The position numbers and the translations under genes are program-made. A stretch of DNA of 20,504 nucleotides, from IMG/VR virus record IMGVR_UViG_3300046007_005762, positions 1-20,504 of that record; one strand, 5' to 3'. The stretch comes from a virus. Positions 1 through 20,504 of this stretch are shown here, piece after piece (position 1 is the stretch's first letter; the number at the start of each line of letters is the position of its first letter). Under the pieces are notes generated by a model that saw only the letters and a program-made list of their open reading frames with translations, was not told where the DNA came from and did not search any database.

Positions 1-1524
1 AGAGGATTGAAAGTTCCGATATACGGTTATGCCGTTATCGGTCTTGTTGAAAAAGTTTGCAGAACCTGCGATATCATAAAGTGTGGGAACTTCATAGATA
101 CCGCCATCCTTTTTCTGTATCTTGCGTGGGTGTGCCACCAAAAAACAATGCACGTTGTACCTCTCACAGAAGTTGACAATCTTGTCCAGCGACTGACCAA
201 TGTATTTGGTTTCGCTTTCGCTGTACTGATGCTCTAATTTATTCCACGCATCAATAACAAACCAATCAATGTTCCTGCGGTTCTTTAATTCCGCAACCTT
301 GGATAAAATGCTTTCAAGTGTGAAATCCTTTTCCGGCTTTACAAAGTAGATATTGTTTTCCAGCAGCATCAGGGCTTCGTAAACTTCCTCTTGGTTCATA
401 CGGTTATGACCTTGAAATGGTCGCTGTGTGATTTTACGCATCAACTTGCTGATGTGTAATTCAACTGGGCGGTTTTCAGGGCTGTAAAACGCACCTTTCC
501 ATCCGTGTTTTTGCAGTAACTTGATAAGGATATGGTCTAAAAAGTCTGATTTACCGTGACCGGGTACACCTGTAATAGTTGTCAAATATCCCTTGTGGAA
601 TTTTAGCAGGCTGTCAAATCCGGGCATCCCAGTTCCGCAACCCTCTGGCAATCCATAGTTGTAAAGATTTTCAATTTCGGGAAGGTAATCGGTAATGCTA
701 AACACCCCGACCATCGGAAATTCCGTTGCGTTATTCGCTGCATCACGAAGAGCAAATGCACCATTTAAAAGCAGATATTCGTTTGCATCCTTGCAATCAG
801 GAAAAACGATGTAATCGCATTTATCCTTTCCAAAACGCTCTGCAATCGCATTGCGTAGGTCAATGCCCGGTGCATCGTTGTCAACCGCAATATGTATCTT
901 TTCAATGTGGTCAAACATCGGCATAAAGCGGTCAAAGAAAGTAAGATTTGGCTGCGCTCCATTTGGCACACTTATCACGTTTTCAATTCCGGCTTCGATT
1001 AAAGACAGCGCATCCATTTCACCCTCTACTATCCAAACCTGTTTTGCATTTTGCAGGCAGTCGATATTGTACGGGATAAGTTCTGCCCCTTTGTGCATCT
1101 TAAAATGCTTTGCACCATCGCGGTACTTAGTGTTTTTTAACTGCCCATTCTCAAAGTAATTAAAACAGATGCAATTAACTTCTTTGCTGACCTGCGGCAT
1201 CCATTCCACCTGCTCTGTGATTTGCATCTTGTTTAGCGTGGCGGCTGTTATGCGCCTGCCCTCAAACCATTTCAGCACCTTGTCGGATAGCGTGGTATTG
1301 TTTTTCCATTCCGGCACTTCGTATTTTACAACTTCAGGTCGGTCAATAATTGCGCCTTTCCACTGGCAGTGCTGACAATACCATGCCTTTTTATCCAAGT
1401 TAATCGATAGGCATTTGTCAGTTTTCTTTTTTCGGGTGTGGCTGCACTGCGGACAAAGTGTCTGTACTTCTCCTGATGTTTTGCCAGCAGGTATCTCTAT
1501 ATTGTGAAATGAATAGGTCAGCAT
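1..1524 (-). CDS. Bifunctional DNA primase-helicase (T7 gp4-like), C-terminus cut by window edge
   Basis: 508 residues are visible and the frame is still open at base 1. The N-terminus has a primase zinc ribbon with Cys24, Cys27, Cys50 and Cys53. A Toprim domain follows, with EGEMD at 167-171 and DND at 215-217, which would bind the catalytic metal ions for RNA primer synthesis. A RecA/DnaB-like helicase domain has the Walker A motif GVPGHGKS at about 319-326 and a hydrophobic strand ending in Asp425 as Walker B (WFVIDAWN). The segment GSANFFNKTDNGITVYR near the visible end suits the DNA-binding part of DnaB-type helicases. It would unwind and prime the phage fork. The start ATG (1524-1522) overlaps the stop of the initiator gene by 7 bases, which suggests translational coupling in a leftward operon. 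Family assignment is firm; only the end is missing. Confidence 0.93.
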   Translation of the reverse strand, partial: MLTYSFHNIEIPAGKTSGEVQTLCPQCSHTRKKKTDKCLSINLDKKAWYCQHCQWKGAIIDRPEVVKYEVPEWKNNTTLSDKVLKWFEGRRITAATLNKMQITEQVEWMPQVSKEVNCICFNYFENGQLKNTKYRDGAKHFKMHKGAELIPYNIDCLQNAKQVWIVEGEMDALSLIEAGIENVISVPNGAQPNLTFFDRFMPMFDHIEKIHIAVDNDAPGIDLRNAIAERFGKDKCDYIVFPDCKDANEYLLLNGAFALRDAANNATEFPMVGVFSITDYLPEIENLYNYGLPEGCGTGMPGFDSLLKFHKGYLTTITGVPGHGKSDFLDHILIKLLQKHGWKGAFYSPENRPVELHISKLMRKITQRPFQGHNRMNQEEVYEALMLLENNIYFVKPEKDFTLESILSKVAELKNRRNIDWFVIDAWNKLEHQYSESETKYIGQSLDKIVNFCERYNVHCFLVAHPRKIQKKDGGIYEVPTLYDIAGSANFFNKTDNGITVYRNFQSS

Positions 1525-2171
1525 ACAAAGTTCCTCATGTGTTTAGGTATTAATCCGTTCTTTGGTTTTTTTGCCAGCCATTTGCGAGCAGTCAAATTTA
1601 GAGAAACATAGTTCTTATTGTTTCGGTAGTTTTCGATTTCATCAAGGATTTCATCAACCTGCTCACGTTCCCACCCATCTGCAATTATTTTATCAACTTC
1701 GGCAGTTGTAATTTGTAAATGAGCAAAAGCTCTATATATATTTTCTTCTTTCTTTTCTTTCTTATCATTCTTAAATTCTTTAGTTGGTGTCATCTGCGTT
1801 TCATCTGCGTTTCGTTTGCGTTTCACTTGCGTTTCATCTGCGTGTCGCTCGTCTTGGTAACATTCATATTTACAAACAGTTAGCCGTGTCGAAACAGATA
1901 TGTTTTCAAGTGTAATCATGCCGTCAGTTTCCAGCATACTCAAAAACCTACGTACCTTGCTTTTATCCGTGTTCCAGCGTTTAGCCCATGTATCAAGAGA
2001 ATACACGCTTTGACCACGTTTGCAATCATACAATGCACCTTTAATCAATACCTTTTTATCCTCAAAGTTTGCAGAAAGCAGAATATCAATCCACCAGTGG
2101 AGATAATTGCTATCTTGATATATCCAATGCTCGGAAAGTTTACGATGTATTTTTATCCAACCCCCACTCAT
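1518..2171 (-). CDS. Phage replication initiator/helicase loader with winged-helix N-terminus
   Basis: 217 residues. The opening WIKIHRKLSEHWIYQD and the winged-helix-like segment at about 58-90 (TWAKRWNTDKSKVRRFLSML) are typical of phage replisome organisers of the lambda O/DnaD type. A charged linker (about 105-145) contains an 11-residue near-repeat, ADETQVKRKRN then ADETQM, and then a lysine-rich stretch. The C-terminal part, with EIENYRNN and ARKWLAKK, could bind the helicase. The linker is encoded by an 11-bp DNA tandem repeat (1791-1845) that looks like an origin embedded in the gene, as in lambda O. The start ATG overlaps the stop of the upstream gene as TAATG, and the primase-helicase follows with a 7-base overlap. 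Role is inferred from fold-like motifs and position; a purely transcriptional role is less likely. Confidence 0.7.
   Translation of the reverse strand: MSGGWIKIHRKLSEHWIYQDSNYLHWWIDILLSANFEDKKVLIKGALYDCKRGQSVYSLDTWAKRWNTDKSKVRRFLSMLETDGMITLENISVSTRLTVCKYECYQDERHADETQVKRKRNADETQMTPTKEFKNDKKEKKEENIYRAFAHLQITTAEVDKIIADGWEREQVDEILDEIENYRNNKNYVSLNLTARKWLAKKPKNGLIPKHMRNFVC
1728..1785. other. AT-rich, pyrimidine-rich tract next to the iterons (candidate unwinding element)
   Basis: This stretch beside the 11-bp repeats runs from a CTCTATATATATTTTC segment into a nearly pure T/C tract on the plus strand, followed by TTAAATTCTTTAG. In lambda-type origins an AT-rich segment flanks the iterons inside the initiator gene and melts first. 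Placement is suggestive only. It also simply encodes the lysine/glutamate-rich linker of the initiator. Confidence 0.45.
1791..1845. repeat. Five 11-bp tandem repeats (candidate iterons)
   Basis: Five consecutive 11-base units: CATCTGCGTTT (1791), CATCTGCGTTT (1802), CGTTTGCGTTT (1813), CACTTGCGTTT (1824), CATCTGCGTGT (1835). The core TGCGT is in every unit. Eleven is not a multiple of three, so successive units are read in different frames of the initiator gene; conservation is therefore of DNA, not of a short peptide. The period is about one helical turn, which would place protein sites on one face. This fits initiator-binding iterons of a phage origin. Confidence 0.75.
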
Positions 2172-2752: not shown

Positions 2753-2973
2753 GATGCAAATGTAAATGAATTTATAATTGAAAGACGTTTACCAGATTTA
2801 CCCCAAAGCTCTGTTCTTATAGGTTCTACAAAAATTACCTTGCCATTTTTTAGGTGAACAGCAAAATCATTCGCAGCATAGGTTTTTATAAAATCTATCT
2901 CGGCTGTGCGGGTTTTTTCTTTCCAATCCTTACTATCAAGGTAGGAATAAGTTATTGTTTTATTGTGTTCCAT
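2749..2973 (-). CDS. Small hypothetical protein, first gene of the leftward operon
   Basis: 74 residues (MEHNKTITYSYLD...), not recognised. It is a polar protein with short beta-like strands (FAVHLKNGKVIFVEPI). The frame is open up to an ATG at 3078, but that extension runs straight through the duplicated promoter sequence, so I start it at 2973, directly after the -7 element. Only four bases lie between the -7 TTTG and this ATG, so the message may be leaderless or nearly so. It overlaps the next gene as ATGA. Confidence 0.65.
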   Translation of the reverse strand: MEHNKTITYSYLDSKDWKEKTRTAEIDFIKTYAANDFAVHLKNGKVIFVEPIRTELWGKSGKRLSIINSFTFAS

Positions 2974-3047
2974 ACAGCAAAGATAATATAAATTTTTATA
3001 CTTGCAAGCATTTACATAAAAATTTTGTAAAGTTTTTTTAATTAGTT
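2971..3047. repeat. 77-bp direct repeat, copy 1 (carries promoter P1)
   Basis: Matches 3338-3414 at a fixed offset of 367 bases with three mismatches (2974, 3002, 3017). The copy spans from the CAT that is the start codon of the 2749-2973 gene to ATTAGTT. Both copies keep the -33 and -7 elements intact. Confidence 0.92.
2978..3007 (-). promoter_or_regulatory. Leftward promoter P1 (Bacteroidetes-type)
   Basis: On the minus strand TTG (3007-3005), a 19-base AT-rich spacer, then TATCTTTG (2985-2978): a full match to TAnnTTTG with the usual spacing. It sits immediately before the ATG at 2973 and so would drive the leftward replication genes. It lies inside copy 1 of the 77-bp direct repeat. Confidence 0.7.
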
Positions 3048-3338
3048 CTTTGAGGGGCATGGTATCCATCCCAGCCATATTGTGTCAAACTCGGCTGAAA
3101 GTCGCAGGCTCTCTTCTCGCCCAAGGTTTCAAGATATATCCCCCTTATAGGCAGCCGCTTTTACGGTTACGAGCAGTAATACTTTCTCACAGAGCAAGGT
3201 AGACCCAAATTCCCTATCGCTAATTTGCGACACCATTCAATAACGGTGGTTTTCGTTTGCTTGGTACTATTGGCATCCCGATGTTGTGCGTTTTGTTTTC
3301 CATGATTTCGGACTTAGTTTGCCAATCCCTCAAAGAAC
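3045..3338 (-). ncRNA. Candidate structured RNA or long leader closed by a 12-bp helix
   Basis: GTTCTTTGAGGG at 3045-3056 and its exact complement CCCTCAAAGAAC at 3327-3338 enclose 270 bases with no convincing gene. Promoter P2 would start leftward transcription almost exactly at 3338, so the transcript would begin with one arm and close with the other. Inside, ATTGGCA and TGCCAAT (near the 5' end) can pair over 7 bp, and CAGCC/GGCTG near the 3' end over 5 bp. No terminator follows the 3' arm; the RNA would read into the P1 repeat, so it may be a leader of the replication operon rather than a separate RNA. It does not match tmRNA, tRNA or group II intron signatures that I know. Function unknown. 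Confidence 0.45.
3220..3303 (-). CDS. Possible 27-residue leader peptide inside the structured segment
   Basis: MENKTHNIGMPIVPSKRKPPLLNGVAN, ATG at 3303-3301 and TAG at 3222-3220. It is short, basic and proline-containing, with no recognised family and no Shine-Dalgarno. It would be the first sizeable open frame on a transcript from P2; an 8-codon frame precedes it. It may be chance. Confidence 0.22.
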   Translation of the reverse strand: MENKTHNIGMPIVPSKRKPPLLNGVAN

Positions 3339-3414
3339 ATGCAGCAAAGATAATATAAATTTTTATACCTGCAAGCATTTACACAAAAATTTTGTAAAGT
3401 TTTTTTAATTAGTT
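3338..3414. repeat. 77-bp direct repeat, copy 2 (carries promoter P2)
   Basis: Second copy of 2971-3047, three mismatches. Its right end runs into the DnaA box (3413-3421), which copy 1 lacks because the sequences diverge right after ATTAGTT. Confidence 0.92.
3345..3374 (-). promoter_or_regulatory. Leftward promoter P2, duplicate of P1
   Basis: Minus-strand TTG (3374-3372), a 19-base spacer, and TATCTTTG (3352-3345). All key positions are conserved with P1. It points into the 3045-3338 segment closed by the 12-bp inverted repeat. Confidence 0.68.
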
Positions 3415-20216: not shown

Positions 20217-20504
20217 ATGTTGTACATCACAAAAGGCGGCACACCGGAACTGATAATCACGGGCAAAGAGAAAGTAACAATTTCTCCCGTGTATTACCTA
20301 TTGGTGTTCGAGAGCGAAATGTCGCAAGAAAGAAAGGCATTTATCGTGTCCGATACAAGCACAGCACCTAACAGATATCAGTTATTTTCATTTGTAGAGG
20401 GTAGTAGCACAGCCAAAACACTTGCCGTAGGTACTCATTATTGGTCACTATACGCACAGACAAGCCCGACCAACACAAATTATCTGCTGGCAAACGAAGA
20501 GATT
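20217..20504 (+). CDS. Structural-region protein, N-terminal 96 residues, cut by window edge
   Basis: Starts MLYITKGGTPELIITGKEKV and continues in frame to the last base. Beta-strand-rich with no cysteines; VYYLLVFESEM, RYQLFSFVEG and YWSLYAQTSP suggest alternating strands, as in small Ig-like or neck/decoration proteins following the tail tube. No family recognised. It lies under its own candidate promoter after a terminator. The C-terminal part is outside the window. Confidence 0.65.
   Translation, partial: MLYITKGGTPELIITGKEKVTISPVYYLLVFESEMSQERKAFIVSDTSTAPNRYQLFSFVEGSSTAKTLAVGTHYWSLYAQTSPTNTNYLLANEEI

Follow-up and report, generated by a model that had tools for sequence, protein, structure and literature searches.

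The initiator gene and its repeat array

The window (i.e. the whole stretch of viral DNA that was analysed, 20,504 nucleotides) has its replication genes on the minus strand, at the left, and its structural genes on the plus strand, at the right. The features of the replication region are:

1518-2171, minus strand: initiator gene, encoding a 217-aa protein with a winged-helix (wHTH) domain, a disordered linker and a small C-terminal domain (PHROG match, AlphaFold model)
1848-2171, minus strand: wHTH domain, residues 1-108, the putative iteron-binding domain (AlphaFold2 and Foldseek)
1792-1846, minus strand: five 11-bp iterons, on the coding strand GACACGCAGAT GAAACGCAAGT GAAACGCAAAC GAAACGCAGAT GAAACGCAGAT (TRF, core phasing, codon nulls)
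1836-1846, minus strand: unit 1, GACACGCAGAT, phased on the conserved core
1825-1835, minus strand: unit 2, GAAACGCAAGT, phased on the conserved core
1814-1824, minus strand: unit 3 (central), GAAACGCAAAC, the sole unit in the phase in which the consensus gives a TGA stop, and deviating there
1803-1813, minus strand: unit 4, GAAACGCAGAT, phased on the conserved core
1792-1802, minus strand: unit 5, GAAACGCAGAT, phased on the conserved core
About 1731-1783, minus strand: tract downstream of the array, A-rich and purine-rich on the coding strand, a candidate DUE (from sequence)
1569-1739, minus strand: C-terminal domain, residues 145-201, swappable (AlphaFold model, chimeras)
1-1524, minus strand: primase/helicase gene, overlapping the end of the initiator gene and running off the window (PHROG 239 'DNA primase/helicase', E=2e-95)

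The start codon of the primase/helicase gene, at 1524, was read from the sequence. By profile, the initiator protein matches the phage DnaD-like helicase loader families PHROG 2514/186 (PHROG 2514 'DnaD-like helicase loader', E=1e-32, residues 2-144), whose annotation names helicase loading, without origin or iterons. In the AlphaFold2 model the wHTH domain consists of helices and a two-strand wing (block mean pLDDT mostly 86-96), while linker residues 110-142 have a pLDDT of <50, i.e. are disordered. A Foldseek search with this model retrieved generic wHTH proteins, all with E>0.01; 4pt7 ('Structure of initiator'), which we take to be a RepA structure, ranked eighth (E=0.03). Only weak generic wHTH matches were obtained in a PDB sequence search using the alignment. 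Pfam searches gave no RepA_N match for the window protein and no DnaD / DnaB_2 (PF07261) match for its C-terminal domain; the latter match is present in a staphylococcal relative (L241). The C-terminal domain is presumed to be the helicase- or primase-contacting part.

The first-pass annotation had placed five consecutive 11-bp units within the winged-helix replication gene, at 1791-1845. This was borne out by TRF (period 11, 4.9 copies, 86% matches, 1790-1843) and by core phasing, and the span was correct to within one base. The unit reads GAAACGCANNN on the coding strand. The core proposed originally, TGCGT on the plus strand, is found as ACGCA on the coding strand, although the part most conserved across relatives is GAAACG. 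The two-unit pattern is unique to the array within the window (5 overlapping matches versus 0.35 expected from shuffling), and no second tandem iteron array was found elsewhere in the window or in the long relatives. The array is located about 325 bp into the gene, between the parts coding for the DNA-binding and C-terminal domains, and encodes residues 109-127, at the start of the disordered linker.

Selection on the DNA of the array

Since 11 is not divisible by 3, the repeat cycles through all three reading frames, as had been noted from the outset: units 1-5 stand in codon phases 1, 0, 2, 1 and 0, so that units 1 and 4 share a frame, as do units 2 and 5, and unit 3 is alone in its own. Agreement at lag 11 within the array (37/44) was reached by none of 2000 synonymous-codon randomisations and none of 2000 codon permutations of the gene. 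Comparison of relatives gave the same picture at synonymous sites. Among group A pairs, residues that are identical use identical codons in 90% of cases in the array versus 51% in the wHTH domain, and among the more distant group B pairs in 89% versus 66%. The array is thus under selection as DNA, as the first reading of the locus had held, and the codon nulls are also compatible with other DNA-level roles, e.g. autoregulation.

These data bear on whether the period could be a by-product of selection on an 11-residue charged linker repeat (e.g. one contacting DNA or a helicase). An 11-residue repeat is indeed present in the protein, and the linkers of relatives are hydrophilic. However, codon-preserving nulls do not reproduce the repeat, codon conservation exceeds residue conservation, and neighbouring units have DNA in common despite their different frames. 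Moreover, groups A and B differ completely in peptide (ADETQVKRKRN and TNKPLTNNQQT, respectively) but not in period or copy number, the array units being GAAACGCA in group A (window) and CTAACAAAC in group B (L073). The converse, a kept peptide with the DNA repeat lost, which the first reading had named as refuting it, was not encountered among the relatives examined. Selection at the protein level is therefore a highly improbable cause of the repeat. A role as an RNA element in the mRNA has next to no probability: the array does lie within a transcribed gene, which is all that speaks for this, whereas its predicted fold is no better than that of shuffled sequences (z=-0.44) and an Rfam search gave no match.

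The reading frame has left an imprint of its own. In 28 of 44 nonredundant arrays (many of them related, so that the 28 are not independent cases) a perfect consensus repeat would produce an in-frame stop codon, which would fall in unit 3 in 25 of the 28. Within the triplet that would make the stop, 37% of positions in the affected unit differ from the consensus, versus 7% in the same columns of the other units. In unit 3 of the window, for instance, the consensus would read CGC AGA TGA and the actual sequence is CGC AAA CGA. Deviation of the affected unit is forced, because the gene is open; the informative part of the imprint is that the other units do not deviate and that the constraint mostly falls on the central unit. 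The imprint is an unusually clean example of DNA-level selection within coding sequence.

Iterons of relatives and their inheritance with the wHTH domain

The sample comprised 88 nonredundant relatives from viral contigs, annotated phages and genome collections, including phages and prophages of several phyla; since they were collected by protein similarity, and some query peptides overlapped or adjoined the linker, the sample is not fully independent of this region. A viral-contig scan with the protein of staphylococcal phage PVL returned mostly near-identical copies, and plasmid searches for an experimentally tested replicon with the same wHTH type returned 13 and 9 records. In 47 of the 88 relatives the strongest period in the linker code was 11; seven relatives had 12, six had 33 and nine had 22-24. 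The wHTH-coding part of the same relatives served as a control, and there period 11 was strongest in only six. When the wHTH domains were grouped at 60% identity (50 clusters), 29 clusters had a member with a best lag of 11, and 44 had one with a best lag of 11, 12, 22, 23, 24 or 33. A codon-null z of at least 2 at lag 11 was reached in only 49/88 relatives, and in six of the 50 clusters there was no helical period and this z was not reached either. Two relatives, L086 and L090 (Pseudoalteromonas and Vibrio phages), have a linker period of 23 bp, about two helical turns, instead of 11.

The cores vary widely: GAAACGCANNN, CTAACAAACNN, ACAACAAATCA and AACCAACATCA in staphylococcal phages, with GTGAACAGCAG found in a Pseudomonas phage. 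Arrays most often have five copies, and eight copies occur in one staphylococcal cluster. The arrays of two staphylococcal phage initiators (L237 and L241) apparently differ by 33 bp, or three units, which is the smallest frame-keeping change of copy number in 11-bp arrays. Such a difference, and the tandem arrangement itself, are what a functionless, recent minisatellite arising by slippage would show. Gain of a single 11-bp unit, however, is a frameshift, mostly five copies are kept across very distant relatives, and unrelated cores occupy the same site. Together with the codon conservation, this already contradicts such an origin of the repeat, which is scarcely credible.

The iterons are inherited with the wHTH domain. 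Iteron similarity was 0.97 for pairs with the same wHTH and unrelated C-terminal domains, 0.80 for pairs with the same C-terminal domain and different wHTH (the listed examples being mostly one staphylococcal comparison) and 0.64 for pairs differing in both. In a partial Mantel analysis, iterons correlated with the wHTH at 0.68 (p=0.0005) versus 0.11 with the C-terminal domain. Natural chimeras include the pairs L113/L170, L101/L173 and L237/L249, which combine 99-100% identity of the C-terminal domains with 31-47% identity of the wHTH domains and have different arrays, with DNA homology restarting at about the 3' end of the array. As these comparisons show, the repeat follows the wHTH domain, not the C-terminal domain, and the wHTH segment and its iterons would form one recombining cassette.

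A further exchange is seen in close kin of the window (L044, L046 and L048-L055), whose C-terminal domain is 76-97% identical to that of the window protein, with the N-terminus replaced by DUF6291 (PF19808, E=8e-27 for L049). The 11-bp array is absent in these DUF6291-bearing kin. Pfam lists DUF6291 as a domain of unknown function; its presence in this slot suggests that it is a replication-origin recognition module. In L066 and L067 (match region 3001-3198 and upstream), the same type of C-terminal domain is combined with an HTH_36-like N-terminus, and the linker code contains a 15-bp repeat (around ACCGTTAACGGTAAA), not an 11-bp one.

A probable replication origin within the initiator gene

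The AT-rich stretch that the first-pass annotation had described beside the repeats corresponds to the A-rich tract at about 1731-1783. Over the 44 nonredundant arrays, A+T is about 0.59 in the array and 0.77-0.79 at +10 to +39. As evidence for a DUE this is weak, because a linker rich in K, N, E and D is A-rich anyway. Downstream NAN triplets were considered as DnaA-trios and dropped, the same pattern being yielded by K/N/D/E codons.

Relative G874 (loci L329 and L330), with 32,381 bases, a 123-base terminal direct repeat and a terminase 97% identical to that of the window, probably represents a whole genome from this group of phages, and the window, at 20,504 nucleotides, would therefore be about two thirds of a genome. 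In the window and six long relatives the turning points of GC skew track gene orientation, and group B relatives show no turn at the array; the turn expected near the array by the first reading tracks the change of gene strand and neither supports nor contradicts an origin there. A scan for sigma-70 promoters gave chance-level results. Elsewhere in the window, a 77-bp duplication is present (2971-3047 and 3338-3414, 96% identity, 367 bases apart), each minus-strand copy of which ends near TATCTTTG, close to a start codon and resembling the -7 element of Bacteroidota promoters.

Considering its selection as DNA, its position, its co-inheritance with the wHTH and the A-rich tract downstream, the array is very probably the part of a theta-type replication origin, lying within the initiator gene, to which the encoded wHTH binds. 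The proposal of an origin within the initiator gene, already made at first sight of the locus, is thus supported by the synonymous conservation and by the chimeras, which tie the repeat to the wHTH. Most likely, the encoded wHTH binds its own iterons. The wHTH from the 5' part of the gene would occupy all five one-turn iterons next to each other on the same helix face, and this binding would strain the adjacent A-rich tract, which would open. The C-terminal domain, on its flexible linker, would then recruit the phage primase/helicase, the product of the next gene, for helicase loading. As the iterons are coding DNA, they would be placed where the protein sequence matters least, in the disordered linker, and would be kept as alike as the reading frame permits.

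Alternatively, the origin might lie elsewhere, and the initiator might bind the iterons so as to repress its own gene or set the timing of its expression. The wHTH, if bound there, would yield identical co-inheritance in that case, and many initiators autoregulate. Nevertheless, the array is placed about 325 bp into the gene and not at its promoter, it has no other tandem copy in the window or long relatives, and its layout, with the A-rich flank, matches the mapped origins of lambda gene O and SPP1 gene 38. Autoregulation as the role of the array is therefore very unlikely.

The layout of an origin inside an initiator gene is already known (lambda O, SPP1 gene 38, pSK41 RepA_N). Lambda has four iterons, imperfect palindromes of about 18 bp at about two-turn spacing, and differs in this from the window, with its five 11-bp units at one-turn spacing. 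The parallel with lambda gene O drawn in the first-pass annotation holds for the layout, with a different unit size and spacing: the lambda origin and the putative one here both sit well inside the initiator gene and consist of iterons next to AT-rich DNA. Lambdoid origins lie mid gene O, and their iterons are bound by the encoded protein and flanked by AT-rich DNA (PMC7466680). In the pSK41 RepA_N initiator, the wHTH at the N-terminus binds four Rep boxes located where rep encodes the linker, the linker is dispensable and the domains are DnaD-like, and in pPR9 a phage-type N-terminal domain and origin were swapped in as a block (PMC5703833). The window gene likewise has an N-terminal wHTH domain and repeats in the linker-coding part; pSK41, however, is a plasmid with four Rep boxes, whereas the window protein has no RepA_N profile match and its gene has five one-turn units. 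SPP1 gp38 binds direct repeats in its own gene 38 (oriL), adjoining an AT-rich DUE, and the replication set of this phage also includes a helicase loader and a helicase (PMC6316719). There, too, a phage initiator gene carries direct repeats beside an AT-rich tract, but SPP1 has a second origin, oriR, while a second array was not found in the window.

What sets the present group apart from the known principle is that each site spans one helix turn and travels with the half of the protein expected to read it. A literature search that covered mostly open-access sources turned up no account of the one-turn period, of the stop-codon imprint or of how extensive the cassette exchange is. It is an evenly balanced proposition that phage initiators of several phyla share one design, i.e. 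an exchangeable wHTH with about five one-turn iterons in its own linker code, the stop-prone frame falling on the central unit only, freely joined to different helicase-recruiting domains and with DUF6291 as an alternative in the same slot. The repeats offer a sequence-only route to proposing origins for many uncultured phages and to predicting which initiator pairs with which iterons, and with the natural chimeras at hand, how these wHTH domains recognise DNA can be tested directly.
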